From the NCBI RefSeq assembly GCF_000003815.2, contig NC_049996.1:2164647-2228646 (forward strand): a stretch of 64,000 bases of DNA. Reading direction: 5' to 3'. The notes under the pieces are model-generated. The model had not been told where the DNA came from, searched no databases, and was given only the letters and a program-made list of their open reading frames with translations. Origin of the DNA: Branchiostoma floridae (taxonomy: Eukaryota; Chordata; Leptocardii; Amphioxiformes; Branchiostomatidae). Below, piece by piece: positions 5,040 through 55,590 of this stretch (positions within the stretch are counted from its first letter, which is position 1; the number at the start of each line of letters is the position of its first letter). The translations under genes and the position numbers were made by a program.

Positions 5040-5332
5040 CTGATACAGATACATGCCTAGGTTATCGTATTGCCATTGGAATAAATTGAAACGAAATGCG
5101 TAACTGATTAAACACATCAAGTAAGAACATATGTCCTGTCGTGGGTAGCAATGATATCATACGTTTGGTCCCTCTTGCCGAAGTGCAATCACCATTTGGC
5201 CTATATGTAGCCGAAGTATTCACATGTGTACGTCCAGGTAGACATTGTCTTCATATTCCGACATCTCAAGTGCTTCATGATTCTTGTCCTTAGCAGCGTC
5301 AATACGATAACCTAGGCATGTATCTGTATCAG
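5040..5332. repeat. 33-bp perfect inverted repeat joining gene B's last exon and its 3' flank
   Basis: Positions 5040-5072 are the exact reverse complement of 5300-5332, with about 227 bp between. The right arm lies inside the last coding exon of gene B (the part encoding DTDTCLGYRID); the left arm lies 150 bp beyond its stop codon. A transcript reading through both could fold into a 33-bp stem. Confidence 0.95.
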
Positions 5333-8300
5333 CCGCGACGGCACCCTGGTCTCCAACAAATGCCATATTCTGGTAGAAAGATGTTTCTTTTGCTGACTCA
5401 TGACCAAGGCTTGTATATGTGCTTTCGTTCTTATCTTTCTGTTTCTCTTCGCCCAAATTTGTGTAAGTCTTGGATTCCATGGTGTCAGGGTTAAGCGCTT
5501 GGTAGGGAGATTCCTCTTCTTTGTTTTGTAGGTGACGTGGCGAGGCGGTGTTGGTTATTCCAGGCGATGTCGATGCTGCCTGTTGGCCTGCAGTACCAAC
5601 AGATGTCGCTGGGGTGTAGGTGTTTCTCACAGCGGTACGCTTTGATTTCCTCCGCGGAGGAGCGACCGGAGAACTCCCTCCGCCAATAGTGGCATATTCC
5701 GTACCAAAGGCGTCTTCGGTAAGATCTGCCTTTTTCGACATTCTGTGAGAAAAAGCAACAACAATATTATATAATTATTTTGGATTTGCATAATTCATTC
5801 ATTCATTCATTTCTTTCCTTTCCATTCTTTATCCCTCCAGTCTGGACAGCCATAATGTAAAATAAATGTACATACATATACACAATAAGACTTTGGCATA
5901 AATAGTTTTGTTCATAGGGTACAGCACTGTCCGATTGTAACGCTATCTACATTATTTTATAACTCTTTTATACTGATATATTTGTGGTGACCATCAAATT
6001 TCAATGTTAAATAACCGTTACCCATGAAACTTGCGAACGTAGAAGACGATTACGCCAAAGGCGGCTACAAGAAGAACTGCAAGAACGACCACAACTGCTG
6101 TGAGGGCCGACACCGTGTTGCAACAGTTGGCTGTTTTAGCTGATATATTCTGGAAAGGACACATCAATTAGTCATTGTTTCTAATACATCATTAATTGTT
6201 TCTGTCTCTCGAGTTGATACATCAAAAGGAGAATTGGGAAAAAGATACTAACAGCCAAAAAAGATAGAAAGGAGACATAATAGGACCGCCTGAAGCTTGG
6301 AGATCTGCGTGAAAATACCAACAATATTGCAAAATCAATTAGGAAATGTGTGTGTTTACCTGACAGACACCGTTGCCAGCCGGGTAGTAGTTCTCTTCAC
6401 ACGCACACTCCGAGATCACTACGCCTGGGTACTTTTCACTCAGCTGACAGAAACTACCCTCCCCACACGTTAGATTACAAAAACTTGGGTCGTTTGATAT
6501 CAGATGAAGCTCTGTAGTAGAAAAAGACACAGAATAAGCAACTGACTGTAAGTCGTTCAAAATTGAGAAAGTTGTCGACTAGCCTTTACGACTTTCACTG
6601 ACAATATTACTTAATCAACTACATTCTTCTCTTCTTGAAAATGAATTTTACTTTCTTTAGTTATCCATCTTAAAATATGTTCAAAAATGCCCCTGCAGTT
6701 CCATAGAAAATTGTTGGGGGAGGGGCGCAAAATCTACATCAAAAGCTACCAAAATATCAAGACCATGGTATTTCCCGGAGAAAAAAGTGGAAGTTCTGCT
6801 GCAGTACCAAGGTCACACACTAGTGGGTCCAAAATCGAGCTTGACCTTTGTCTTTTCAACTCTTGCCTAACCCATACCTGATATCATTATCACCAAAAAA
6901 CAATACATAGATTATATTGAGGTAAAACCAAAGCAACCTCTTACCTTCTGCGGTAAGCGTAGTTTGCTGTAGTCCAACTCCACCTGTGAAGTTCAGTGTG
7001 TTGACGAACGTTCCGTTGTTGATTAGTTGTTGTAGATGGGCCCTAGCTTTCTGAGTAATAATCAAGTCTGGTTCCGATCCTACTGTGCTGAAGACGGTAA
7101 CGAACCTGGCCACAACGCTTCCCGGGCTAGAAGGTTGTGACCGGCATGTGAATGTTTTTTCTTAATCTTTTTTTTATTTGTTTATTCCGGGTATGAAAAA
7201 CCATAGATCACACAACACATACATAAATACATATACTTACAAAATCTACCTGTACAGCAAACCATAAACATTACTTTCTGCAGCAGATTACAGAGTTCAG
7301 CAAATTAACGTTTGATGATACAATTATCGGAGAATAGTCCACATTCCAGTTACGGCGGCCATTTTGGATTTTCCGGTGTCATTGCAACCAAAACGAGGCT
7401 GTTCATATTAGAAAGTTTAGTCAGTTGTTAGGAAATAAGTAATCATTTGATTAACATTGCAATTGCCAGATAGATCATCAAATTTTAGCACATATGTACC
7501 AAACTGTACTTACATGAATTGGATCAGTCTAATATCAACGTATGCTGGCTGCCCGACAAACACTGGAGAAACCTGGAACATGTTTCAAGGGTAAATAGTC
7601 AAGAATTTCAAAATTTGCTATATCTTACGTAAACATCACAACAAATATTACGCGTATGGATTATGTGAGGGACCAAGTAAAATGACTTTTTGCTTGAGTT
7701 AATTAATTTTAATAGACTTAATGAAAATACTGTGTTCATGATGCTACATCCTACATCCTAATACAATAGATATTCTCTAAGTCCATCCCGAACTTACCGA
7801 TTGTATAAAAGCATTCTCAAGCGCCATGAATTCAACTGCTGTCCTGTCGTTGTACACTGGTCGAAAAGGTAAGTCCATAACCAACTGGGACGGTATAACC
7901 CTTCTTGGAGTGACGAGTAGAGAAGATGTAGGTGCTGCAGTCGTTCCCCCTGTAGCCGTGCCCCCGGGTGTATTCGTACCCCCTGTAGTTTTGTCCCCTT
8001 GTATAGTCGTGACCCCTGTAGTCGTGGTCCCTGGTATAGCCGTGTCCCCTGTACTCGTGCTCCCTGGTATAGTGGCGACACCTGTAGTCGTGCCCCCAGG
8101 TATAGTGGTGACCCCTGTACTCGTGCTCCCAGATATAGTGGTGACCCCTGTACTCGTGCTCCCAGGTATAGTGGTGACCCCTGAAGTCGTGCTCCCTGGT
8201 ATAGTAGTGACCCCTGTACTCGTGCTCTCAGGTATAGTGGTGACCCCTGTACTCGTGCTCTCAGGTATAGTGGTGACCCCTGTAGTCGTTCTCCCTTGTA

Positions 8301-10696
8301 GAGTCGTGTCCCCTGTAGTCGTGGTCCCTGGTATAGTGGTGACCCCTGTACTCGTGCTCCCTGGTATAGTCGTGGCCCCTGTACTCGTGCTCCCAGGTAT
8401 AGTGGTGACCCCTGTACTCGTGCTCCCAGGTATAGTGGTGACCCCTGTACTCGTGCTCCCTGGTATAGTCGTGTCCCCTGTACTCGTGCCCCCGGGTGTA
8501 TTCGTACCCCCTGTAGTTTTGTCCCCTTGTATAGTCGTGACCCCTGTAGTCGTGGTCCCTGGTATAGCCGTGTCCCCTGTACTCGTGCTCCCTGGTATAG
8601 TGGCGACCCCTGTAGTCGTGCCCCCAGGTATAGTGGTGACCCCTGTACTCGTGCTCCCAGATATAGTGGTGACCCCTGTACTCGTGCTCCCAGGTATAGT
8701 GGTGACCCCTGAAGTCGTGCTCCCTGGTATAGTAGTGACCCCTGTACTCGTGCTCTCAGGTATAGTGGTGACCCCTGTACTCGTGCTCTCAGGTATAGTG
8801 GTGACCCCTGTAGTCGTTCTCCCTGGTAGAGTCGTGTCCCCTGTAGTCGTGGTCCCTGGTATAGTGGTGACCCCTGTACTCGTGCTCCCTGGTATAGTCG
8901 TGGCCCCTGTACTCGTGCTCCCAGGTATAGTGGTGACCCCTGTACTCGTGCTCCCAGGTATAGTGGTGACCCCTGTACTCGTGCTCCCTGGTATAGTCGT
9001 GTCCCCTGTACTCGTGCTCCCTTGTAGAGTCGTGTCCCCTGTAGTCGTGCTTCCTTGTAGAGTCGTGCCCCCTGTAGTCGTGCTCCCAGGTATAGTGGTG
9101 ACCCCTGTAGTCGTGCTCCCAGGTATAGTCGTGTCCCCTGTAGTCGTGCCCCCAGGTATAGTGGTGACCCCTGAAGTCGTGCTCCCTGGTATAGTCGTGT
9201 CCCCTGTACTCGTGCTCCCAGGTATAGTCGTGTCCCCTGTAGTCGTGCTCCCTGGTAGAGTCGTGTCCCCTGTACTCGTGCTCCCTGGTATAGTCGTGTC
9301 CCCTGTAGTCGTGCTCCCTTGTAGAGTCGTGTCCCCTGTAGTCGTGCTCCCTTGTATAGTCGTGTCCCCTGTAGTCGTGCTCCCTTGTAGAGTCGTGTCC
9401 CCTGTAGTCGTGCTCCCTGGTATAGTCGTGTCCCCTGTAGTCGTGCTCCCTTGTAGAGTCGTGTCCCCTGTAGTCGTGGTCCCTGGTATAGTCGTGTCCC
9501 CTGTAGTCGTGCTCCCTTGTAGAGTCGTGCCCCCTGTAGTCGTGCTCCCTTGTAGAGTCGTGCCCCCTGTAGTCGTGCTCCCTTGTATAGTCGTGACCCC
9601 TGTAGTCGTGGTCCCGGGCATAGTCGTGTCCCCTGTAGTCGTGCTTCCAGATATAGCGGTGACCCCTGTAGTCGTTCTCCCTTGTAGAGTCGTGTCCCCT
9701 GTAGTCGTGCTCCCTGGTATAGCCTTCTTGGAGTGACCCCTGTACTCGTGCTCCCAGGTACTGCAGTGGTGCCCCCTGTACTCTGTGCTCTCAGGTATAG
9801 TGGTGCCCCCTGTAGTCGTGCTCCCTGGTATAGTCGTGTCCCCTGTAGTCGTGGTCCCTGGTATAGTCGTGTCCCCTGTAGTCGTGGTCCCTGGTATAGT
9901 CGTGACCCCTGTACTCGTGCTCCCTGGTATAGTGGTGACCCCTGTACTCGTGATCCCAGGTATAGTGGTTGACCCCTGTACTCGTGCTCCCTTGTAGAGT
10001 CGTGTCCCCTGTAGTCGTGCTCCCTGGTATAGTGGTGACCCCTGTACTCGTGCTCCCAGGTATAGTGGTGACCCCTGTACTCGTGCTCTCAGGTATAGTG
10101 GTGACCCCTGTAGTCGTGCTCCCTGGTATAGTCGTGTCCCCTGTAGTCGTGGTCCCTGGTATAGTCGTGTCCCCTGTAGTCGTGGTCCCTGGTATAGTCG
10201 TGACCCCTGTACTCGTGCTCCCTGGTATAGTGGTGACCCCTGTACTCGTGATCCCAGGTATAGTGGTGACCCCTGTACTCGTGCTCCCTGGTATAGTCGT
10301 GGCCCCTGTATTCGTGGTCCCTGGTATAGTCGTGTCCCCTGTAGTCGTGCTCCCAGGTATAGTCGTGGCCCCTGTACTCGTGCTCCCAGGTATAGTCGTT
10401 GCCCCTGTACTCGTGCTCCCAGGTATACTGGTGACCCCTGTACTCGTGGTCCCTGGTATAGTCGTGGCCCCTGTATTCGTGGTCCCTGGTATAGTCGTGG
10501 CCCCTGTAGTCGTGCTCCCAGGTATAGTCGTGGCCCCTGTACTCGTGCTCCCAGGTATAGTCGTTGCCCCTGTACTCGTGCTCCCAGGTATAGTCGTGGC
10601 CCCTGTTGTCGTGCCCCCAGGTATAGTCGTGGCCCCTGTTGTCGTTGCAAGGAGAAGCAACATTCTCGTTGTTAGATATCCACAGTAAGCAAGCAT
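5220..10696 (-). CDS. Gene B: mucin-like receptor with SEA, EGF-like, membrane span and ITAM-like tail
   Basis: Six exons on the minus strand: 10696-7798, 7572-7514, 7126-6945, 6511-6360, 6149-6022, 5742-5220. All introns are GT-AG and all phases agree. The start encodes MLAYCGYLTTRMLLLLA, aligned to gene C's MSAFVGHL start, followed by about 80 repeats of the type TTIPGSTSTGV. A SEA domain follows (begins LVMDLPFRPVY, contains FIPGSVVARF with the GSVV autocleavage motif), then an EGF-like module with six cysteines (CNLTCGEGSFC to GVCQ), then the span LTAVVVVLAVLLVAAFGVIV. The tail carries YATI, YQAL, YTNL, YTSL, YQNM, YEDNV and YLDV. Known: SEA domains cleave at G/S and stay associated in transmembrane mucins. 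Inferred: cell-surface mucin with tyrosine-phosphorylation signalling. Exon 1 has one surplus base near 9969, which breaks the frame (sequence error or null allele). Predicted length is about 1,313 residues without that base. Confidence 0.85.
7930..10650. repeat. 33-bp coding minisatellite of gene B
   Basis: About 80 head-to-tail 33-bp units encoding 11 residues on the minus strand, with T/S/P/G-rich variants that fit O-glycosylation. A block of 16 units is duplicated at a 528-bp offset (7968 and 8496), and a nine-unit block recurs near 9820 and 10112. Recent expansion is implied by long identical runs. All six frames are largely open because the unit contains no stop. Confidence 0.97.
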
Positions 10697-11409
10697 GATG
10701 TCTTTTGCCACTGTTCAGGGATCGTACCAGGGGATTTTTTCATATGCCATTGACCGTAACTGCGCCCTGAGAAGAAAAGATAAGCACATTTTGCTTAGTA
10801 ATATGTTGATGACGATTCAATATACAATATGTGACAGCACTGAAGAGTGAGGTAGTCAAGAGACGACAATTAAGTTTTTGTGGTACCCACCAGTTGTAAA
10901 GAAGCCTATTGTTCAACTTCAAGACACATACTTCCACATAATACAGTTGACTAACATTACTGTGTTATGGAGTACCTTGCCCCCTAGCAAGACTTAGTAA
11001 CCTTATCCTTGCCGCATATACGCGATCACATATCTTGATAAAGAAACCCACAGAGCATTTGTCCTTCGCGTTCGGAATGCCATGGCGACTTAACGTTGGT
11101 GTTCTCTATGAATGGATAACACTGCATCGTGACTACACGTTAAAGTCGTTGTTCGACTAAGATACTGTAGATTTTGACATTTTCGCGGTTTCGTAGTGAG
11201 CTCTTACCGCTGACTCATCACAACGTAAACATATATTGCATTGTGAGCTCAAAGATACTACAATATCATGAAAAACGTTAACGTGCCGCAAACTGTTGGA
11301 ATTTACAGTTACAGTACCATGAAACTTGACTACTTTTGGCATGAAAAGTTCAACTCTACTCACTCTTCGTGTCATATTATTCCAATACACATATTCAGAA
11401 TACCTTTCT
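10697..11409. other. Upstream region of gene B, no other gene
   Basis: Non-coding sequence that should contain the gene B promoter and any 5' UTR. No TATA box or other clear element could be assigned. Confidence 0.5.
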
Positions 11410-11785
11410 CTCTAGTAACGGCGAGGTAGAATTCGCCGTAGGCTGTTATACAATTTCAGAGTCGTGGAGTTTTCGGATAGGCTGTGACAGAAAAGGAACA
11501 TTGATAACAATTTAAGACAGTCTTTTCTGTACTAAGACAGATGAAATTTGTAGGCCACACGCACCAATACCCCCCAAATATCCTCAGTTTCCCTAATCTC
11601 CAAGCAGATCCTACGTTGCCATATATAGCCGGCCAAAGGGAGTCAAACGGGCGGCCATTTGACTCCCTTTGGCCGGCTACGATACTCCTTGGCCAGCTTT
11701 GATACTATATATCATCGTGGGATCTGCTTGGAGATTACAGTTTCCCATCGTAGGACGATCGTGCGACAGTCGTGAGACAACTTTT
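11410..11785. mobile_element. Diverged MITE-like element, host of a nested MITE
   Basis: Shares segments with the element at 36590-36806: a stretch around aggctgtgacagaaa, one around ctgtactaagacag, and a terminal part resembling cgatcgtgcgac. It is interrupted by the MITE at 11594-11737. Ends are approximate. Confidence 0.6.
11594..11737. mobile_element. 144-bp palindromic MITE with 9-bp target duplication
   Basis: Terminal inverted repeats begin taatctccaagcagatc and end with its complement. A second inner inverted repeat is gccggccaaagggagtcaaa. The 9-bp direct repeat cagtttccc flanks it (11585-11593 and 11738-11746). A 9-bp duplication is typical of Mutator-like elements. Family copies or fragments lie at 27582-27668 and 61613-61735. 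Confidence 0.9.
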
Positions 11786-11889
11786 ATCTGACTCCCTACA
11801 AAGCATTCAAACGTTCTCTCACAACAGTTTTCTATCATTTCTCACATCTAAGGGAAAGCTTGTTTACATTTTGGGAAGACAGCGTCACT

Positions 11890-12215
11890 CCAAACATTTT
11901 TTTCCTTGTAACATCTGGTGTAAACAAAGTGAGCACTAAACCATACATAAACTCATTAACTATTCTGAAAGCATCTACTGCATGCAATGTTGGAACGACG
12001 CCAAGTCACACACCTAGTCTATTTACGTGTTTACTTTCTTGTCGCGCTTCCTTGACTCCAGAAGTTTTTCTTCCTTGTAACATCTGGCGTAAAAAGTGAG
12101 CTCTAAACCATGCATAAACTCATAATCCGTTCTGAAAACATCAACTGTAATGTTGGAACGACGCCGAGTCACGCACGCCTATTTACGCATTTACTTCCTT
12201 GTCGCTCTTCCTTGT
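11890..12215. repeat. ~165-bp tandem duplication
   Basis: Two copies share ccttgtaacatctgg (11904 and 12073), a run around aaccatgcataaactcat, and tggaacgacgcc (11991 and 12154). The remainder of 11786-12806 shows no gene. Confidence 0.75.
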
Positions 12216-12809
12216 TGAAATTACATGTTCGCCAGCATACAACGCATCTCACCTAGGCGTAATGTAAAGTACTGTACATGTGTTACTCCTTTATTATTTC
12301 ACGACAAATGCTCAGCAGAACTTCACTTGCTTGTGCCTCTGCTCTACTACGAAATTTTCTCAGCAAGCACACTTCTTGCCACGGCCATGGAAGCAAAAAC
12401 CCTTTCTTCTTCCAAAATCCACCTCTTTTGAGTAAGTTCTACGCAAGTACTTCTTGCTTAAAACTATATTGCTTTGAAACAAGCTACCTTGATGGGTAAA
12501 ACCTGAAACTTTTCAAGTCAAGCGTAAACAAACATCTGACAACAAAATCTTGTAAAGGAATCCAAATTGTTTAATTGGCTCTTTGTGCTTTGTTTTGTGC
12601 AAAATTTAGAGTAAATAAAAAACTAATGTGAGCTCGTATATAGAACATACTGTTAACGTCGTTGTTATACAACTTATACTTTTTGATCACACAAAACACT
12701 ATGCGTTCATTGTATGACTCAAATGATAAATGTTGTATAATCTTTCTATTGTCAGATTAACTTCATTATTCCTGCCAATGCGGAGTTGTCTGGGAATAAT
12801 ACCTGATAA

Positions 12810-14024
12810 GGCCATACCAATTTAATTTGTTGGTTCTCGGATTTTTTCATGAAAAATATGAAGCGACAGGGCGAAAAAAAAAAAAAAAACTTCTCTGATG
12901 GCAAAGCCATTGCTGAATCTGGCCATGGGGGCTCTCGTATCATACTCACTGAGACACTAACGGTACAGTAAGTGCTACCGGTACATACATTGCTATTTTC
13001 GTATGTTATTTTCACGATAATTGATTTTATTGATTTCTTTCAGTTTACCGAATTGTACTAAAACATTAGAATTATGGTTATTGATAAAATGTGACATTGT
13101 AATTATGAATTTTATATGTACCATCCTGGTTTGATTCAATTGGAAACAACAGTCTGAAAATGCAGTCTTCATTTTTGTCTTTTATTCATGGAGGTCAAAA
13201 ACAAAGTGTCCATCTTACAGTAACTGAAACTTATCAACAAACCCCAAGGGGAACTCAAAATAATTTAATATTTGCTCTGCTTGACAAGAATTCCCAGTCT
13301 CACTGCAACTCTGTGCTACCTACTTTGTCAAAATTCTACTCTTTAAAAGTCAAAAACCCCTGTGAACTTACTACTAATTACTAGTACTTTGGGTGTATAT
13401 GAACAAGCCCCAATTTGGCCAAGGGAACTCATATTTTTCTGTTGGCTAAATACTTCGAAATAATTTTTGGTTTGTCCATCAAATATCAAGGAAATTATAT
13501 TTCATCAAACCCACCTGCACATCGTTTGGGCCCTCGATGCATATCTGTTAATTATGTGACAGAAGAAGAAGAAGACATGTTTTCATAAATAAATTTTGTC
13601 TGTTGGCCAAGAAGTTTCTTCTGACTTCTGTCCCCGGTTAAAAACTGTACACACCACAAAAAATGTGGCTTTCCTGGATCCACAGACATGGTATTTTCTT
13701 CTCCTGCTACTGCACTACCTTCTACTACACTTCTTCAAGCTCCAATTCTACTCTATTTGTACTCAAAATTATCCGACTCCGGTACTCCTTCCCCTTCTAT
13801 TTTTCTGGTGGCGCCATTTTGATTTTAAGAATGATGCTTCTGATTGGCTAATCTCCGTCACATGATCACCTAGGTCACAACTTCAAAGAGAGACACCTAT
13901 CGACTTATTGAAAAACTGCAGCCTTCAGATAGCCTGGGGAGAAAAAATTTTTTTTTTTTTTTTTTGGTTTTGCGATTTTTTGAAGCGGCGATTCCGAGAA
14001 CCAACGAATTAAATTGGTGTGGCC
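12810..14024. mobile_element. 1.2-kb non-autonomous DNA transposon, TAA target duplication
   Basis: Imperfect terminal inverted repeats of about 31 bp: left begins ggccataccaatttaatt and continues to ggttctcgg; right ends in the complement (attggtgtggcc). TAA flanks both ends (12807-12809 and 14025-14027), matching the 3-bp TWA duplication of PIF/Harbinger elements. Poly-A and poly-T tracts lie inside both ends. No transposase frame was found inside. Confidence 0.8.
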
Positions 14025-14689
14025 TAAGCTGCCTTTGAAGCTAAAGGTGTTTAGGGGAAACTTACAATGCAGTGACAGGGTAACTTCTTTACTGTAACGT
14101 TAACGTAATTTGGTGCTTAAATGATCTAACAAAGAAGCTTAAAAGGGGAACGTTTGGTGTTGGAAAGCAACATCAAAGCACTGGACAGTCTAGTACGTAA
14201 ACGAATGTTACCAATAAGTATGGTACAATTTAGATACTATGCTACACGCAGTTTTAAAAACATGTACACAACATGTAGTCATTAATTCACTCAAAATTGA
14301 TATATATCTAGCACATGAAATTAATATACGAGAAAACAGGAACCATTCGGTCTAACAGAAAATGTCAAAGTCACTAAGTGTTGACTCCCTATGTTCTAGC
14401 CTTAGACGACCTTGGCCGCCATTTTGTTTCCTTCACTACGTTCGTCCCACCTGACACCTGTTAACGTTAAAGCTCACCAGAGCACAAATGTTGCTTGCAC
14501 AACAAAAACAAAGAAAGTTTTACCTGTGTCAGAGTAATAGTGTTGTCTTCAAGACAAAACTACTTCTTCAAGATTCACTGTCAAGGAAGTAGCACCTGTG
14601 CTGAGAGCACCTGACTTAGTGTGTCTCCCTTGATGTCATCACTGAAGTGTAACCAAGGGCTCGGTGGGAAAGTGCGCTGCGGGCGGAAC
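14025..14689. other. No gene seen
   Basis: Non-coding. A CCGCCATTTTG-containing stretch near 14410-14430 resembles ones near 7350 and 25860 and is probably dispersed repeat sequence. Confidence 0.4.
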
Positions 14690-15490
14690 AGGTATGTAGC
14701 TGTAACGGGATACGCCTGTTTATTTTTGTCTGGTTGTCTTGGCAAAAACACGTCTATGTAAAACCCCTGCTGACTCTTCTTGAGGTCATCGGATGTGACG
14801 TACCGGATGTGACGTATTATCTACACTTTCTCACCCTATGAGGACATTGAGGTCTTGTAATGTTGTTCTATATGTGTGCCTAATGTTTTATCTAGTATAT
14901 TGTGTCTAGAGATCCACGAACTCATACCTTTGACAAGTACTTTTGTCACATTACAATGCAATTTTTTAATGTAGCTGTAGGTGTACAGGTGTTTATTTTT
15001 GTCATGGTTATCTTCGTTAGAACAAGTCTATGTAAAAACTCCACTAACTCTTCTTGGGTTCACCGGATGTGACGTATCATCTACACTTTCTCACCCTATG
15101 AGATCATCGAGGTCTCGTAATGCTTTTCTATATTATGTGCTTAATGTTTTATCTAGTACATTGTGTCTAGAGTTCCACGAACTCATACCTTTGCCAAGTA
15201 CTTTTGTCACATTACAATGCAATTCTTTAAATGTAGCTGTACATAGCGGATACAGGTGTTTATTTTGTCTTTGTTGTCTTGATAAAAACACGTCTATGTA
15301 GAACCCCCATTGACTCTTCTTGGGGATACCGGATGTGACGTATCATCTACACTTTCTCACCCTATAAGGACAGTGAGGTCTTGTAATGTATTCTATATGT
15401 GCCCAGTGTTTTATCTAGTACATTGTTTCTACACTACAGTTCAACGAACTCATACCTTTGACAAGTACTTTTGTCTCATTACAGTGTGAA
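14690..15490. repeat. Three tandem copies of a 262-bp unit
   Basis: The marker tttatctag recurs at 14887, 15148 and 15410. Each copy includes ggatgtgacgta, a run at cactttctcaccctat, and acgaactcatacctttg. No coding potential. Confidence 0.92.
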
Positions 15491-16156
15491 TGATATACAA
15501 AGAAGTCTCCGGTGTAACGAAGTGTAGTCATTTAGCAATAAGCAGGTACTCTTAGCCTCGGTTCGTTGTCGGTATCGCTACGTCCTAAATCAAATTTGTG
15601 TTTTCCTTTACTTTATGATAGTAATATCATGAAAACATACTAGAATGGTTAAGAAGACTTTAGTGAGATACCCGATTAAACTACATACATTTAGTACATT
15701 CAATATTACCATATCAACTTCTATTGTGGCTGACGAAAGACAGCGAATGATGTCTGAATCGTCTAACCGTTTCTAAAATATATCCTAGTTGTTTGAGTAA
15801 CTGCTACCTCACGTAGTTTATTAACTGGATGTCTAAACTTCATCGAAGTATTGATGGTATAATATTTTATCATGGAAGCTTATCTATGTTGGTTGTAATA
15901 GTAGTACAATGCTTAACTTTTTTCCAACACAAATGTAAACACAGCTAAAATTTTCTTCAGGATAAATACTGATGACCAATCACTTCAAAACGTAAACTCA
16001 CAAGATGTCATCAGTATTGTTTGTGAATAAGGCAACAGTGATTGTTATACAAATTTGATTCGTGTACACCTTTAATTTGTGTTGGAAGAAGGTTTGGCAT
16101 TGTAACATGATATCATACATTCGGATAGTCGAACGTATTACGCTACTTGTCCTATC
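15491..16156. other. 3' flank of gene C, no gene
   Basis: AT-rich non-coding sequence downstream of the gene C stop codon. Nothing identifiable. Confidence 0.5.
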
Positions 16157-18513
16157 CTAAGCATTTAAGTCCAGGTAGACGTGGTCCATCTCTATCGCCT
16201 CTTCTACTCTCCGAGTTCTTCCACCCGACCTAGCCGCACCTCTTCCGGCCGTTGTTCTCCTAGATGCCTCCGCCCAGATGGCACCCTGGTCTCCCACGAA
16301 GGCCATGTTCTGGTAAAAAGCTGTACCTTTTGGGCAAAGACTTGTATATGTGCTGTCGTTCTTTGGTTTCTTATTCCTTATGTCCAAACTTGTGTACGTG
16401 TTGGATTCCATAGTGTTAGGGTTGAGAGCTTGGTAGGGAGATTCCTCTTGTGTGTTCTGTAGGTAGAGGGTTGGGGCGTTGTCTGTCGTTGCCATGGCAC
16501 CGCTGTTAGTTATTCCGGTGGCTGATCTTGCCCGTTGACCTGCAGTTCCGACGGATGTCGCTGGCGTGATGATGGCGTCTCCTCTCGGATCTGCTGGAGA
16601 GCTCCCTCTACCGATTGTGTCATATTCTGCACCAGTAGGGTCTTCCGTATTAATTTCCTTTCTAGACATTCTGTAGAAAAAAATGACAAATTTTACCATT
16701 TTGATTATTTGTCTAATAACATGCTACTGCAATTGAAAGTTAACATACCAGCGTTGTCCTACTACCATGCTATTTTCATGCTTTACATCAAAGACATCTG
16801 TCTCCATAATTGTCTTGATTGGCATAAGAAATATGTCTAGACTTGTTTTGTGTTGTTTGTCTAAGGGGCCTTCACCTTTGACATATTACCCACAATTCAT
16901 CTCGCCCGGCACACGTACTCGGAACGGTAAACGTATCTATTAGGAATTTTGTGAGGTAGACCTATAAAAATCAGTGTTTGTTACCTCCTAAGCTTGAGGA
17001 CGAGAAAGATGATGACACCCATGGCGGCTACGACAACAATCACCAAGAAGACCACAACTCCTATGAGGGCCGACACAGTACTAGTGTTTGCTGTCGAGGA
17101 TGGGATATCCGGGAAAATCGAAGTCGTAAGTCCAGGCGAAGTCGTGAGTTCAAACAAAGTTGTATGTCCAGCAGATGTAGAAAATTCAGGCGCGTATGTA
17201 GGCCAAGGAGTACTCGTGGCTGCAGGCGCATATGTGGGCCATGGTGTACTTGTGAGTTCAGGTGCATATGTGGGCCATGGTGTACTTGTGAGTTCAGGCG
17301 CATATGTGGGCCATGGTGTACTTGTGAGTTCAGGTGCATATGTGAGCCAATGTGTACTTGTGACTTCAGACACATAAGTTAGTCCAGGCGAAGTCGAGAG
17401 TTCAGGCGCGTATGTGGGCCAGGGTGTACTCGTGAACCAAGTTGTACTTTTGAGCTCAGGCGCATATGTTAGTCCAGGAGAAGTCATAAGTCCAGGAGAT
17501 AAGGAGAGTCCAGGCGCGTATGCGGGCCAGGGTGTACTCGTGACTTCAGACGCATATGTGGACCAAGTTGTACTCGTGAGTTCAGGCACATATGTTAGTC
17601 CAGGCGAAGTCGTGAGTCCAGGCGAAGGCGAGAGTCCAGGCGCGTATGTGGGCCAGGGTGTACTCGTAACTTCAGACGCATATGTGGACCAAGTTGTACT
17701 CGTGAGTTCAGTCACATATGTTAGTCCAGGCGAAGTCGTGAGTCCAGGCGAAGGCGAGAGTCCAGGCGCGTATGTGGGCCAGGGTGTACTCGTGACTTCA
17801 GACGCATATGTGGACCAAGTTGTACTCGTGAGTTCAGTCACAAATGTTAGTCCAGGCGAAGTCGTGAGTCCAGGCGAAGGCGAGAGTCCAGGCGCGTATG
17901 TGAGCCAGGGTGTACTCGTGACTTCAGACGCATATGTGGACCAAGTTGTACTCGTGAGTTCAGGCACATATGTTAGTCCCGACGAAGTCGTAAGTCCAGA
18001 CGCATATGTAGGCCAGTGTGTAGTTATCAGTTCAGACGCATATGTTACTCCAGGTGCATATGTGTACCATGGTGCCGTAGTGAGTCCAGGCGAATCCGAC
18101 ATCGTGTTGATCGTGAATCCAAATGAATCCAATGCCAATAATTGTGGTCGTCGATCTAAGCCGTGTAGTTGTCTCGGCGTAGTTATGAGTCCAGGCGTAG
18201 TTATGAGTCCATGTGTAGACTTGAGTCTAGGTGTAGTGTTGATTCCAGGTGTAGCCTTGATTCCAGGTGTAGCCTCAAGTCCAGGTGTAGCCTTGATTCC
18301 AGGTGTAGCCTTGAGTCCAGGTGTAGCCTTGATTCCAGGTGTAGCCTCGAGTCCAGGTGTAGCCTTGAGTCCTTGTAAAGCCGTGAGTCCATGTGTAGCC
18401 GTGAGTCCAGGTGTAGTCGCTGCTGTAGTCGTAATTGCAGCCCTAGTTATACTTGAAAAGACCAGAGAAAACAGCAGCAGTTCCTTTGCTAGATGTCCAA
18501 CGAAAGCAGACAT
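16157..18513 (-). CDS. Gene C: mucin-like receptor with ITAM-like tail, no SEA or EGF
   Basis: Two exons on the minus strand, 18513-16985 and 16670-16157, joined by a GT-AG intron in phase 2; predicted 680 residues. The signal peptide starts MSAFVGHLAKELLLFSLVFS. Two repeat zones follow: a TPGLxATPGI-type zone, then 42-residue (126-bp) units containing STPWPTYAPGL and TTWSTYASEV, and shorter 12-residue units. The membrane span (ALIGVVVFLVIVVVAAMGVI) aligns with gene B's. The tail begins MSRKEINTED and carries YDTI, YQAL, YTSL, YTSL, YQNM and YLDL with spacing like gene B, including YQAL-x9-YTSL, which fits the ITAM consensus (YxxL/I, 6-12 residues, YxxL/I). The tail is far better conserved than the ectodomain. 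It lies about 5.5 kb upstream of gene B in the same orientation, so a tandem duplicate. Function is inferred, not shown. Confidence 0.88.
17400..18060. repeat. 126-bp coding repeats in gene C
   Basis: About five 126-bp units (marker gcatatgtggaccaagt near 17550, 17676, 17802 and 17928) encode 42 residues on the minus strand. A related 36-bp array lies at 17200-17350, and a proline-glycine array of about 18 bp per unit at 18180-18410. Confidence 0.92.
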
Positions 18514-19959: not shown

Positions 19960-22900
19960 AAACGTGTCAGGAGAAAAGGTGTGTCAAGCCCAAGACACAC
20001 TTAAGAACTGCACCTTTAAAAGAGTATAGTAAATAACTAAGGTGTAAATTTACATACTAAAGAAGAAAGCTTAAGAAGGAAACCTTTTTCTAAAACATAA
20101 GATGGTCAAGCCCCTGACACACCTAAGAACTGTGTTCTGTAAGTGTTTACTAACAGAAAACGAAGAGAAATCTGTTAATGAAACCTTTCTCTTTTTCTGA
20201 AAGAAAAGTGCGTCATGCCCATGATACACCTACGAACTGCACTCTCTATTTGTATAGAGTTTGCTCTTTTTGTATAGAGTTTGCTCTTTAAGAGTTTGCT
20301 CTTTTCAGAGTACGAAAAGAAATCTTTTAAGGAAACCTTTTTCTAAAAGAAAAGTGCGTCACACTTAAGAATTGCGCTCTCCAAATGTATACTAACAGAG
20401 AACGAAGAGAAACAGTTTAAGGAAATCTTTCTCTTTTATGAAAGAAAAGTTCGTCATCATGACACACGTAAGCATTGCGCTTTCTAAGTGTATACTAACA
20501 GAGAACGAAGAGAAATAGTTTAAGGAAATCTTTCTCTTTTATGAAAGAAAAGTGCGTCATGCCATGACACACTTAAGAATTGTGCTCTCTAACTGTATAC
20601 TAACAGAGAACGAAGAGAAATAGTTTAAGGAAATCTTTTTCTTTTATGAAAGAAAAGTGCGTCATGCCATGACACACTTAAGAATTGTGCTCTCTAACTG
20701 TATACTAACAGAGAACGAAGAGAAAAAGTTTAAGGAAATCTTTTTCTTTTATGAAAGAAAAGTGCGTCATGCCATGACACACTTAAGAATTGCGCTCTCT
20801 AAGTGTATACTAAGAGAAAACGAAGAGAAATCTTTTATAGAAACTTTTCTCTTTTATGAAAGAAAAGTGCGTCATGCCATGACACACTAAAGGATTGCGC
20901 TCTCTAGGTGTATACTAACAGAGAACGAAGAGAAATAGTTTAAGGTAATCTTTCTCTTTTATGAAAGAAAAGTGCGTCATGCCATGACACACTAAAGGAT
21001 TGCGCTCTCTAGGTGTATACTAACCGAGGACGAAGAGAAATAGTTTAAGGAAATCTTTCTCTTTTATGAAAGAAAAGTGCGTCATGCCATGACACACTTA
21101 AGAATTGCGCTCTCTAAGTGTATACTAACAGAGAGCGAAGAGAAATAGTTTAAGGAAATCGTTCTATTTATGAAAGAAAAGTGCGTCATGCCATGACACA
21201 CTTAAGCATTGCGCTTTCTAAGTGTATACTAAGAGAAACGAAGAGAAATCTTTTATAGAAACTTTTCTCCTTTATGAAAGAAAAGTGCGTGATGCCCATG
21301 ACACGCTAAAGAATTGCGCTTTCTAAGTGTATACTAACAGAGAACGAAGAGAAATATTTGGAAGAAACTTTTCTCTTTTATGAAAGAAAAGTGCGTCATG
21401 CCCATGACACACTAAATAATTGAGCTCTCTAAGTGTATACTAACAGAGAACGAAGAGAAATAGTTTAAGGTAATCTTTCTCTTTTATGAAAGAAAAGTGC
21501 GTCATGCCATGACACACTAAAGAATTGCGCTCTCTAAGTATATACTAACAGAGAACGAAGAGAAATATTTGGAAGAAACTTTTCTCTTTTATGAAAGAAA
21601 AGTGCGTCATGCAATGACACAACTTAAGATTTGCGCTCTCCAAGTTTATAGTAAGAGAAACAGTTTAAGGAAATCTTTCTCTTTTATGAAAGAAAAGTGC
21701 GTCATGCCATGACACACTTAAGAATTGTGCTCTCTAAGTGTATACTAACAGAGAGCGAAGAGAAATAGTTTAAGGTAATCTTTCTCTTTTATGAAAGAAA
21801 AGTGCGTCATGCCATGACACACTAAAGAATTGCGCTCTCTAAGTATATACTAACAGAGAACGAAGAGAAATATTTGGAAGAAACTTTTCTCTTTTATGAA
21901 AAAAAGTGCGTCATGCTATGACACACTTAAGAATTGCGCTCTCTAAGTGTATACTAAGGGAGAACGAAGAGAAATATTTATAACAAACTTTTCTCTTTTA
22001 TGAAAGAAAAGTGCGTCATGCCATGACACACTAAAGAATTGCGCTTTCTAAGTGTATACTAACAGAGAACGAAGAGAAATATTTGGAAGAAACTTTTCTC
22101 TTTTATGAAAAAAAAGTGCGTCATGCTATGACACACTTAAGAATTACGCTCTCTAAGTGTATACTAAGGGAGAACGAAGAGAAATATTTATAACAAACTT
22201 TTCTCTTATATGAAAGAAAAGTACGTCATGCCATGACACACTAAAGGATTGCGCTCTCTAAGTGTATACCAACAGAGAACGAAGAGAAATAGTTTAAGGA
22301 AATCTTTCTCTTTTATGAAAGAAAAGTGTGTCATGCCATGACACACTTAAGAATTGCGCTCTCTAAGTGTACACTAAGAGAAACGAAGAGAAATCTTTTG
22401 TAGAAACTTTTCTCTTTTATGAAAGAAAAGTGCGTCATGCCCATGACACGCTAAAGAATTGCGCTCTCTAAGTGTATACCAACAGAGAACGAAGAGAAAT
22501 AGTTTAAGGAAATCTTTCTCTTTTATGAAAGAAAAGTGCGTCATGCCATGACACACTTAAGAATTGCGCTCTCTATTTGTATATTACACAGTACGAAAAG
22601 AAATCTTTAAAGGAAACATTTTTCTGAAAGAAAAGTGCGTCATACACATGACACACTTACGAATTGCGCTCTCTAAGTGTATACTATCAGAGAACAAAGA
22701 GAAATATTTTAAGGAAACCTTTCTGAAAGAAAAGTGCGTCATGCCCATGACACACTTAAGAATTGCGCTCTCTTTTTGTATACTAAAAGAGTACGAAGAG
22801 AAATCTTTTAAGGAAATCTTTCTCATTTTCTGAAAGAAAAGTGCATCATACCCATGATACACCTAAGAATTGCGCTCTCTAAGTGTATACTAACAGAAAA

Positions 22901-25290
22901 CGAAGAGAAATCTTTAAGGAAACTTTTTTCTAGAAGAAAAGCGCGTCATGCCCATGATACATCTAAGAATTGCACTCTCTAAGTGTAGACTAACAGAGAA
23001 CAAAGAGAAATCTTTTAAGGAAACTTTTTTTTTTTAAGAAAAGTGCGTCATGCCCATGATACACCTAAGAATTGCGTTCTGTAAGTGTACACTATCAGAA
23101 AACGAAAAGAAATCTAAGAAAACATTTCCCTTTTTCTGAAAGAAAAGTGCGTCATGCCCATGACACACTAAAGAATTGCGCTCTTTAAGTGTGTACTAAC
23201 AGAGAGCAAAGAGAATTGTATCAAGGAAACTTTTCTGAAAGAAAAGTGCGTCATGCCATGACACATTTAGGAATCGCGCTCTCTATTTGTATATTACAGA
23301 GTACGGAAGAATTCTTTAAAGGAAACATTTTTCTGAAAGAAAAGTGCGCCATACACAGGACACACTTACGAATTGCGCTCTCTTCTTGTATACTATCAGA
23401 GAACAAAGAAAAATATTTTAAGGAAACAATTTTCTGAAAGATAAGTGCGTCATGCCCATGACACACTGAAGAATTGCACTCTTTTTTTTGTATACTAACA
23501 GATCACAAAGAGAAATCTTTAAAGGAAACCTTTGTATGAAAGAAAAGTGCGTCATGCCCCTGACACACCTAAGAACTGCGTTCTGTAAGTGTATACTAAC
23601 AGAAAACAAAAAGAGATCTTTTAAGGTAAAATTTCTCATTTTTTGAAAGAATAGTGCGTCATACCCATGACACACTTAAGAAATGCGCTCTCTAAGTGAA
23701 TACTAACACAAAACGGAGAGAAATCTTATAAGGAAACCTTTTTCTGCAAGGAAATTGCGTCATGCCCATGACACACTTAAGAATTACGCTCTCTATTTTT
23801 ATATTGCAGAGCGCGGAAAGAAATCTTTTAAAGAAACTTTTTTTCGGAATCAAAAGTCCGTCATACCCATGACACACTTACGAATTGCGCTAAGTGCATA
23901 CTATCAGAGAACAAAGAGAAATCTTTTAAGGAAACCTTTCTCTTTTTCTGAAAGAAAAGTGCGTCATACCCATGACACATTTAAGAATTGCGCTCTCTAT
24001 TTGTACATTAACAGAGAACGAAAAGAAACCTTTTAAGGAAACCTTTTTCTAAAAGAAAAGAAGGTCAAGCCCCTGACACACCAAAGAACTGCGTTCTGTA
24101 AGTGTAATCTAATAGAAAACTAAGACAAATCTTTTAAGGAAACCTTTCTCTTTTTCTGAAAGAAAAGTGCGTCATGCCCATGACACAACTACGAACTGCG
24201 CTCTCAAAGTGAATACTAACACAAAACGGAGAGAAATCTTTTAAGAAAACCTTTCTCTTTTTCTGAAGGAAACGTGCGTCATACCCAGGATCTTGAATTG
24301 CGCTCTCTATTTGTATATTAACAGAAAACTAAAAGATTAACAGAAAACTAAAAGAAACCTTTTAACTTATTTAAGGAAACCTTTTTTTTGATGAAGGAAA
24401 AGTGCGTCATGCCATGACACACGTAAGAATTGCGCTCTCTACTTGTATATTACAGAGTACGAAAAGAAACCTTTTAAGGAAACCTTTTTCTGAAAGAAAA
24501 GTGCGTCATACCCATGACACACTTAAGAATTACGCTCTCTATTTGTACATTAACAGAGAACAAAGAGAAATCTTTTAAGGAAACTTTTTTTCTGAAATAA
24601 AAGTGCGTCATGCCCATGACACACCTACGAACTGCCCTCTCTAAGTGAATACTAACACAAACCGAAGAGAAATCTTTTAAGGAAACCTTTCTCTTTGTCT
24701 GAAAGAAAAGTGCGTCATGCCCATGACACACGTAAGAATTGCGCTCTCCAAGTGTATACTAACGGAGAACAAAGAGAAATATTCTAAGGAAACTTTTTTC
24801 TGACAGAAAAGTGCGTCATGCCCATGACACACTTAAGAATTGTGCTCTCTTTTTTTATACTAACAGAGTACGAAGAGAAGTCTTTTAAGGAAACCTTTTT
24901 CTGAAAGAAAAGAAGGTCAAGCCCTTGACACACCTAAGAACTGCGTTATGTAAGTGTATACTAACAGAAAACGAAGAGAAATCTTTTAAGGAAACCTTTC
25001 TCATTTTCTGAAAGAAAATTGCGTCAAGCCCATGACACACTTAAGAATAGAGCTCTCTATTTGTATATTAAGAGAGAACAAACTTTTTTCTGAGATAAAA
25101 GTGCGTCATGCCCATGACACACCTACGAACTGCCTTCTCCAAGTGAATACTAACACAAAACGAAGAGAAATCTTTTAAGAAAACCTTTCTCTTTTTCTGA
25201 AAGAAAATTGCGTCAAGCCCACGACACACTTAAGAATAGTGCTCTCTATTTGTATATAAGCAGAGTACGAAAATAAATCTTTTAATAATG
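19960..25290. repeat. 105-bp satellite array, about 50 monomers
   Basis: A head-to-tail array. The monomer contains gtgcgtcatgccatgacaca, then ttaagaattgcgctctctaa, gtatactaacagagaacgaa and a pyrimidine/purine tract ending gaaagaaaa. The core (about 20.4-22.56 kb) is homogeneous, with gtcatg-c-catgac and ttttatgaaag; the flanks, mainly 22.6-25.3 kb, have gtcatg-cc-catgac and ttttctgaaag and are more diverged. Multi-monomer blocks are duplicated (for example 21462-21599 and 21766-21900). Short frames inside it are not genes. Confidence 0.97.
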
Positions 25291-28759: not shown

Positions 28760-29163
28760 GGCCACGTGACGCAATAACGCATGACCCTCGCAAACACACA
28801 CCAGTGCTTGTAAACACGTCGGTAGAACGTACTGCGCCTGCGCGAACACTGGTTGTCTTTTTAACGTTGCATTGAAATCCCGCTTGTTGCACAGTATATG
28901 TTAGAGATATGGTTTCATGTAAAACGTACACGGAGTTTTACCCTTATATACGCACGCAATTTCTTAAATGCGGACCTTTAGTAAACCGGGAGATTAGCAT
29001 GTCTATACTTTTCGCGCAGGCGTAGTACGTTCCGGTGACGTGCTGTGCTTGTACACAGTAGCACACACAGGGATACGCGCAGTAGAGTGGACTCTCTTTT
29101 ACCACACAACTGGTCACCTTTTTTTTATTTTCTTGAGAAAGTGGCTGAATTTTTCCTGCGAAA
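28760..29163 (+). promoter_or_regulatory. Putative promoter region of the carboxypeptidase gene, with 22-bp inverted repeat
   Basis: A 22-bp element at 28825-28846 (gaacgtactgcgcctgcgcg plus aa) recurs inverted at 29011-29032 with one mismatch. The core TGCGCCTGCGC resembles an NRF1 site. A CACGTG E-box lies at about 28761 and a TGACGT half-site near 29036. No TATA box near the start. The inverted repeat may instead belong to a foldback MITE. Confidence 0.4.
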
Positions 29164-40014
<10,851 letters not shown>

Positions 40015-54099: not shown

Positions 54100-55143
54100 C
54101 TATTGTCCTTTGTGTTGCAAGGCGGGGTCCCATGTACTGGAAAGTTCTACGCGCAGTCCTCCCTTCCGGTTTAAGGTGGGGTTGTAGATCCGCTCGTAGA
54201 TGGCCTCCTTGACACCCCGTTCGTACCACCGTGGTTCGCGGTCAAGAATGTCTGTAGTATCCAGTCTGAAGGAATGTCCTTGGTGTAGCTGAGTGTGGTG
54301 GTAGATGGCAGAAGAGTATCCACTTGCTGTAGCCCTGCAGTGTTGTTTGTACCTTGCCTTCAGTGGTTGACTGGTTTCTCCAATGTAGGTGTCGTTGCAC
54401 TGTGGACCTTCACACTTAAGTCTGTAGATGACGTCAGACTTGGTGCCTTTCTGTACACGGTCCTTTGGATGGACCAACTTCTGTCTGAGGGTGGAGTGAG
54501 GCTTAAAGTTGGTGGCAATGTTGAAGTTCTGTAGGATTCGCCGGAGTTTCTCTGATACTCCTTGGATGTACGGGATTGTGGCATTCACTGTTGTCTTCTT
54601 CTTGTCCAGTGGCTTACTGTTTGAAGGTTTCTTGGACTCATCACATGGTTTCAGGTCTTTGTTGAAAGACCATTGTCTGTAGCCACACTTGTTCAGGGCG
54701 TCCTTCAGGTGTCGGTGCTCGTTGGATTTGGCTTTCTCTGAAGTGATGATGGTGTCCGCTCTGTGAAACAGGGTTTTGATAACGCCCAGTTTCTGCTCTA
54801 AGGGATGATGGGATTGAAAGGCCAGGTATTGGTCGGTGTGGGTTGGTTTCCGGTACACCTCTACATTGATAAGTCCGTCTTCCTCTACAATGACTTTGGA
54901 GTCCAGGAAGGGTAGTGCGTTGTTCTGGCTCATCTCCTGTGTGAACTTGATGTTGTCGTCTATTTGGTTGATATGTTGGAAGAACTTGTCTGCATTTGTC
55001 TTCTTCAATCTGGAGAAGGTGTCGTCCACATACCGGAACCAGTTGGCGGGCGGAGTGTCCGGGAACGTGCTCAGGGCTTCTGTCTCAAATCTCTCCATGT
55101 ACAAGTTGACAACTATAGGGGATACTGGAGAACCCATAGCGCA
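54100..55143 (-). CDS. Penelope-like reverse transcriptase plus GIY-YIG endonuclease (N-terminally truncated)
   Basis: One open frame of about 350 residues on the minus strand. The reverse transcriptase part starts at AMGSPVSPIVVNLYME and has the YVDD catalytic box (FRYVDDTF), then NALPFLDSKV and VYRKPTHTDQYL, typical of Penelope-like enzymes. The C-terminal GIY-YIG-type endonuclease has VIYRLKCEGPQCNDTYIGET followed by an arginine-containing helix (ARYKQH). The frame continues into the terminal inverted repeat (to 55200) where no enzyme sequence exists. The fingers part of the polymerase is absent, so it is a truncated copy. Confidence 0.93.
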   Translation of the reverse strand, partial: CAMGSPVSPIVVNLYMERFETEALSTFPDTPPANWFRYVDDTFSRLKKTNADKFFQHINQIDDNIKFTQEMSQNNALPFLDSKVIVEEDGLINVEVYRKPTHTDQYLAFQSHHPLEQKLGVIKTLFHRADTIITSEKAKSNEHRHLKDALNKCGYRQWSFNKDLKPCDESKKPSNSKPLDKKKTTVNATIPYIQGVSEKLRRILQNFNIATNFKPHSTLRQKLVHPKDRVQKGTKSDVIYRLKCEGPQCNDTYIGETSQPLKARYKQHCRATASGYSSAIYHHTQLHQGHSFRLDTTDILDREPRWYERGVKEAIYERIYNPTLNRKGGLRVELSSTWDPALQHKGQ

Positions 55144-55170
55144 TTGAATTGTTCTGACTAGTTCATTCTG

Positions 55171-55216
55171 CTTTTGCTGAAGAAGAGTGATGGATGTCAC
55201 TCGAAACGTCCGGAAG
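55171..55216 (+). ncRNA. Hammerhead ribozyme motif
   Basis: Stem I CTTTTG (55171-55176) pairs with CGGAAG (55211-55216) with two G-U pairs. Core CTGAAGA (55177-55183); stem II GAGTGA with TCACTC around a six-base loop; core GAAA (55203-55206); then C-GTC with an expected cleavage site after the C at 55210. Stem III is minimal, as in known Penelope-type hammerheads. Confidence 0.8.
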
Positions 55217-55590
55217 TAAATATCCGTTTTTTATCCAGTTGTAGAGATTGAATTGTATTTGAATATTGCTTACCTGGATGTCTAACCTTCATAAACGTAT
55301 TAACAATGGCAATTCAAAATGGCGGGCACTAGTCATGTGACCTCCTTATGGGACTGTTCTATAAGTATCGCGGGAGGGACTGTTGTAGCATAGCTTATCA
55401 TACAACCATTTTAGAGTGAATTCTGAACAAGATTTTCAATTCATAGTGCTATCATCTGACTGATATTTACATTGTGGTCCTTTTTTCTGTGCTATAATTA
55501 CCCAGGTTTGAGGAACTTAGTGCAAATATGGATATTGATTCTCCTCAGTGCCCAATTAATGTACAAAAGGCTCAGACACATTAGTGTTAT

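Follow-up and report, generated by a model that had tools for sequence, protein, structure and literature searches.

What kind of surface protein is encoded by two neighbouring mucin-like genes, here called B and C, on the minus strand of a 64,000-nucleotide stretch of the Branchiostoma floridae genome (the window)? On balance, we favour the reading that both are tandem-duplicated, single-pass surface receptors in which a mucin stalk is combined with a cassette resembling the immunoreceptor tyrosine-based activation motif (ITAM), encoded on a tail exon of its own, and that in B, C, and their kin, the paired tyrosines are phosphorylated during signalling and then recruit a kinase with tandem SH2 domains. 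The features of the two genes, in window coordinates, are as follows.

18513-16157, minus strand: gene C, two exons, a 680-amino-acid model without an internal stop
16985..18513, minus strand: gene C exon 1, encoding the signal peptide, Thr/Ser/Pro-rich repeats, and membrane span (from the open frame and splice donor)
17082-16984, minus strand: gene C membrane span
16157..16670, minus strand: gene C exon 2, encoding a cytoplasmic tail of 170 amino acids with six YxxPhi tyrosines (from the phase-2 acceptor and the motifs)
16385..16447, minus strand: gene C ITAM-like cassette, EESPYQALNPNTMESNTYTSL (converted from genome C18:2181031-2181093)
10696-5220, minus strand: gene B, six exons
7798..10696, minus strand: gene B exon 1, encoding the signal peptide, 11-amino-acid Thr-rich repeats, and the start of the SEA domain
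7939..10645, minus strand: gene B 33-bp repeat array, 81.6 copies
7514..7572, minus strand: gene B SEA exon 2 (from the splice model, with the Pfam SEA match on the spliced model)
6945..7126, minus strand: gene B SEA exon 3, with GSVVA
6360..6511, minus strand: gene B six-cysteine EGF-like exon (from cysteine spacing)
6022..6149, minus strand: gene B membrane-span exon
5220..5742, minus strand: gene B tail exon, 173 amino acids with six YxxPhi tyrosines
5454..5516, minus strand: gene B ITAM-like cassette, EESPYQALNPDTMESKTYTNL (converted from genome C18:2170100-2170162)

The spans and tails of the two genes match closely, as a preliminary description of this DNA had claimed: 113 of 190 aligned residues are identical (18 of 33 in the spans alone), a tblastn search within the window gave 60% identity over 30 amino acids of the span (E 1.7e-7), and the span-to-tail intron is in phase 2 in both genes. 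All of the modelled introns, five in gene B and one in gene C, have GT/AG boundaries. The tyrosine motifs named in that description were found in both tails, namely YQAL-x9-YT(N/S)L-x12-YTSL, YQNM, an N-terminal Y(A/D)TI, and a terminal YLD(V/L). All six YxxPhi tyrosines are common to B and C, compared with none of the five other tyrosines, which include one within the span and one facing a gap; the chance of this split in a random draw is 1 in 462. When the residues of the tails were shuffled, the pattern Y..[LI]x6-12Y..[LI] arose in about 1% of cases (994 of 100,000 for B and 1138 of 100,000 for C), and a triple YxxL arose in 17 and 18 of 100,000, respectively. Across the span and tail, the ratio of the proportions of non-synonymous and synonymous differences (pN/pS) was 0.52 (95% interval 0.40-0.68), with none of 5000 bootstraps at 1 or above, and the tail core from EEESPY to DQGA had the lowest pN among 101 segments of the same size.

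Outside the membrane, the two genes are built differently. The stalk of gene C consists of 451 amino acids, 48% of which are threonine, serine, or proline, behind a signal peptide called by inspection only, and the exon 1 repeats have periods of 18, 36, 108, and 126. A Pfam scan found no SEA domain in gene C, and EGF and SEA are both absent from it, unlike gene B. The gene B repeats fall into two stretches with 58% and 56% threonine, serine, and proline, and a SEA domain spread over three exons was detected on the spliced model (Pfam E 9e-9). At the expected place, its SEA exon 3 encodes GSVVA, which resembles the self-cleavage site of MUC1, given as GSVVV in a passage of PMC4456727. Pfam gave no EGF match for the six-cysteine exon, and a search of the PDB yielded no relative of the SEA/EGF part at E 0.2 or better (best 0.21) and none of the gene C tail. 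From these features, gene B is predicted to encode a SEA-type membrane mucin, more than a bare mucin stalk. The earlier picture of a signalling tail on a changing mucin stalk was borne out in its conserved tail and divergent stalks but not in the bareness of the gene B stalk. The ectodomain repeats had been called unrelated, and this is partly true; however, the sequences surrounding the B and C start codons can be aligned (none of 1000 shuffles was as good), as can a short repeat stretch (none of 300), in shuffles of single bases that are a weak control where repeats are concerned. Shared sequence was not supported in the last intron, where 96 of 1000 shuffled alignments scored as well, in the upstream sequence only (73 of 1000), or in the 3' flank (28 of 1000).

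Five exons paralogous to the gene B SEA, 47-51% identical, occur elsewhere in the genome, at loci (L042-L046 and L051-L055) with EGF-like exons and a membrane span of another type. The cassette is absent from the open reading frames (ORFs) listed for the 5.6-6 kb downstream of each of the five paralogues, lists that were filtered by length and pattern, and the SEA paralogues were rejected as carriers of the tail. Because these paralogues have other spans and lack the cassette in the listed ORFs, gene B looks like a SEA-mucin ectodomain joined to a C-type span and tail, or else gene C has lost the SEA part.

The repeats of gene B raise the question of whether it is still intact. In the current assembly, their reading frame breaks near 9969, and two further frame changes, which cancel each other, lie between about 9800 and 9710; the stalk is read here in pieces. 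Gene B might accordingly be a decaying copy, a pseudogene, with C as the sole functional gene of the pair in the window. We consider this decidedly unlikely: every gene B exon from SEA and EGF-like to span and tail has an open frame and undamaged splice sites, and long repeat arrays are prone to misassembly. Constraint is also seen in the B/C substitutions, but with a pairwise ratio it cannot be assigned to one branch or the other. As a separate observation on this gene, a 33-bp perfect inverted copy links window 5040-5072 (plus strand) with 5300-5332 in the tail exon, where it codes for DTDTCLGYRI; the copy sits about 175 bases 3' of the gene B stop codon. It may be the reason for the differing ends of the B and C tails, and it could form a hairpin in the gene B mRNA.

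Searches of the genome (513,431,437 bases in 431 contigs) placed the tail in a wider set of genes. Besides B and C, the 21-residue cassette was found in one more place, in a gene on contig C11 that we call D (E 2.8e-4). The gene D model comprises 459 amino acids in four exons, which encode mucin repeats (54% threonine, serine, and proline), an LDLa domain (Pfam E 8.8e-6), a span, and a tail with YENI-x9-YQAL-x9-YINL; no SEA domain was found in it by the Pfam scan. Its span-to-tail intron is also in phase 2, and in B, C, and D, the span exon joins the tail exon in frame, with a single span and the cassette on the cytoplasmic side. Over the 21 codons of the cassette, B and D differ by eight synonymous and four non-synonymous changes; therefore, the match in D is not a recent copy. 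A search with the C tail gave seven matches, three without the cassette (L014, L016, and L018) and four with it: B, C, D, and gene E on C15 (E 1.46), which carries YQALDPRTMCSTEYTSL. The gene E tail in turn identified two genes on C18, F (E 2.8e-11) and G (E 0.0086). Same-strand exons upstream of gene E encode Fibrinogen_C (E 4.6e-63), Ig, and fn3 domains, and exons upstream of F and G encode WSC (2.7e-14 and 2.8e-18) and CUB (7.2e-15 and 8.5e-14) domains, with sub-threshold matches to sushi at F and SUEL lectin at G; these ectodomain assignments refer to nearby upstream exons and not to models spliced from end to end. The idea that the cassette is confined to mucins had to be given up, because E, F, and G adjoin fibrinogen/Ig/FN3 or WSC/CUB exons.

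Over the six tails, the cassette has the consensus YQAL-[ND]PxTM-x4/6-Y[TIM][NS]L, and 10 of the 11 invariant columns in the alignment fall inside it. The conservation of tyrosines in other family members had been proposed as a check, and it was confirmed within this genome, in that both cassette tyrosines are present in six of six tails; the leucines at +3 from each of them are likewise invariant, as are the spacer residues P, T, and M. The pattern YxxL/I-x6-12-YxxL/I is present in every tail: the spacer between the paired tyrosines is 11 in G and 9 in the other five, inside the range 6-12. In all six genes, a phase-2 junction marks the point where the basic stop-transfer stretch ends. Furthermore, an acidic residue occurs no more than five positions upstream of 29 of the 31 YxxPhi tyrosines, against a background of 57% when every position in the tails is counted (0 of 20,000 permutations), and acidic residues are often seen in this way in kinase substrates.

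Several observations weigh against kinase signalling by these tails as a family. The fit to the ITAM consensus claimed earlier holds only for the wide definition of 6-12: with a spacing of 9, neither the B nor the C tail contains a pair at the classical x6-8, all six cassettes exceed that spacing, and no Pfam ITAM match was obtained among the six tails. The B/C/D tails are linked to those of E/F/G by a single weak match (E 1.46), and when the tails of D, E, F, and G were used as queries, each recovered its own group and weak matches only, including C8 (E 6.45) and C10 (E 5.79). Because E, F, and G were found through cassette similarity, the presence of the cassette in them is not independent. 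The frame break in the gene B stalk belongs with these points, as does the fact that each YxxPhi doubles as an endocytic sorting motif. As for the two groups of tails, their cassettes might have arisen by convergence, but a common origin seems likely because both the peptide pattern and the splice position are shared.

The double nature of YxxPhi suggests another function, in which the B and C tyrosines would be sorting signals of the AP-2 type and the tails would govern the endocytosis and recycling of the mucins and not kinase signalling. All six conserved B/C tyrosines match YxxPhi, and membrane mucins undergo endocytosis through tyrosine motifs. However, one YxxPhi suffices for sorting, yet a pair with a spacing of 9-11 and an invariant [ND]PxTM has been kept in six of six tails, and the acidic residues upstream of 29 of the 31 motifs resemble tyrosine-kinase sites. 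We regard sorting as an unlikely explanation of the tails.

Genes of the kind that paired-tyrosine signalling would use are present. An SH2 search of the genome yielded 60 exon matches with E values no higher than 0.001. On contig C12 (L031 and L040), Pfam identified an SH2 domain, ankyrin repeats, a second SH2 domain, and a tyrosine kinase domain in this order, which we take to be the layout of SHARK/HTK16. The best PDB match of the first SH2 domain was ZAP-70 (3.7e-21), with RasGAP, SYK, and SHP-2 nearly as close; because several SH2 families match almost equally, the kinase was called SHARK-type by its layout, not by score. A tandem repeat array with units of about 276 bp lies inside this kinase gene. 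In the mechanism that we propose, contact with or a pull on the glycosylated stalk would cluster the receptors, and in gene B, a self-cleaved SEA domain would perhaps come apart in the process. A Src-family kinase would phosphorylate the paired cassette tyrosines, the phosphorylated pair would be the docking site for a SHARK/Syk-type kinase with tandem SH2 domains, and YQNM and YTNL would bring in PI3K or Grb2-type adaptors. Receptors of this kind might serve in epithelial or immune sensing.

The same tails could also act as a general phosphotyrosine scaffold for SHP-2, Grb2, and PI3K without a Syk/SHARK step, in which case the output could be inhibitory or growth-related. Motifs of the form Y-x-N or Y-x-x-M are found in YQNM, YTNL, YENI, and YINL, and the genome contains an SHP-2-like SH2 exon (E 2.3e-41) and a PI3K p85-like SH2 exon (E 1.5e-6). 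In amphioxus, moreover, a leucine-rich repeat receptor with tyrosines resembling the immunoreceptor tyrosine-based inhibitory motif (ITIM) is described as inhibitory in a portion of PMC8211107. A scaffold of this kind is nevertheless rather doubtful, given that the YxxL pair, and not YxN or YxxM, is the most conserved element and that YQNM is missing from the tails of D, E, F, and G.

Paired-tyrosine signalling through a tandem-SH2 kinase can be extended, tentatively, to the whole set of genes: the extended cassette on its phase-2 tail exon may be an interchangeable module combined with four or more types of ectodomain, with the mucins acting as ITAM receptors via the SHARK-type kinase. ITAM signalling is best known from vertebrate blood cells and some invertebrate recognition receptors, and if this extension were true, glycocalyx sensing would be tied into the immunoreceptor pathway outside the vertebrates. 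A mucin with the cassette in its own tail would turn the surface coat into an ITAM sensor, and the cassette under several ectodomains of one genome would offer a testable picture of ITAM receptors arising when a single signalling exon was fused to a variety of binding heads. Direct binding tests should be easy to design, given an invariant spacer and a single natural change in spacing (9 to 11).

The remainder of the window contains other genes and repeats. Gene A, from window 1 to about 3550 on the minus strand, is mucin-like with many Asn-X-Ser/Thr sites and extends past the window edge. It was rejected as a third member of the family, with no B- or C-type tail within 20 kb to its left, and two pieces scanned on the gene A side gave no Pfam match above the cut-off. 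A 105-bp unit repeated in tandem (45.4 copies) occupies 20360-25079. A zinc carboxypeptidase gene lies at about 29100-40000 on the plus strand (Peptidase_M14, E 1e-23 for one exon, the others by inspection), and ORF inspection at about 42800-63400 points to several copies of cytochrome P450 genes, located on either strand, with one exon scanned (p450, E 1.7e-12) and 23-bp tandem repeats between exons. A reverse-transcriptase-like ORF at 54100-55230 on the minus strand (RVT_1, 20.6 bits, below the cut-off of 29.6), with a GIY-YIG-looking end, is perhaps a Penelope-like element.

Among known systems, the vertebrate ITAM receptors and adaptors, such as CD3, DAP12, and the Fc receptors, with Fc-gamma-RIIA as a case of wide spacing, resemble the products of the amphioxus genes as single-pass surface proteins whose tails contain a YxxL/I pair 6-12 residues apart. 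They have short or Ig ectodomains, whereas those described here are of the mucin, LDLa, fibrinogen, or WSC/CUB type, and the amphioxus tails have a spacing of 9-11 and a conserved [ND]PxTM spacer and lack a Pfam ITAM match. Gene B is similar to the SEA transmembrane mucins MUC1, MUC3, MUC13, and MUC17 in its Thr-rich repeats, SEA domain with a GSVV-type site, EGF-like exon, span, and tail, but its tail differs in carrying the ITAM-like cassette; gene C differs from these mucins in having neither SEA nor EGF. ECSCR (endothelial cell-specific chemotaxis regulator) is also a small mucin-like single-pass protein, and its Pfam family PF15820 matched the gene C span plus juxtamembrane region with 26.1 bits (E 8e-6). 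We rejected membership in this family because the score is below the curated cut-off of 27 bits and was reached by C only, neither the span nor the tail alone matches, and B gave no match. A mucin-type ITAM receptor of a lancelet was not found in the literature searched, which covers part of the literature. Invertebrate receptor tails with ITAM-class motifs are represented by the fester co-receptors of Botryllus and the allorecognition candidates of Hydractinia, for which ITIM, hemITAM, or ITAM tails are described in part of PMC12065747; as characterised there, these receptors are of the Ig type (with sushi domains too in Botryllus), unlike B, C, and D. The Pfam scan found no Ig domain in B, C, or D, and gene E has an Ig exon upstream. 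Draper of Drosophila, an engulfment receptor with EMI and EGF repeats, has an ITAM-like tail and works with the kinase Shark, which has the SH2-ankyrin-SH2 arrangement. The B. floridae genome likewise combines ITAM-like tails with an SH2-ankyrin-SH2 kinase, whereas B and C are mucins. Judged by their predicted proteins, B and C are best classed as ITAM-like receptors whose ectodomain is unusual and whose spacer is both extended and conserved.

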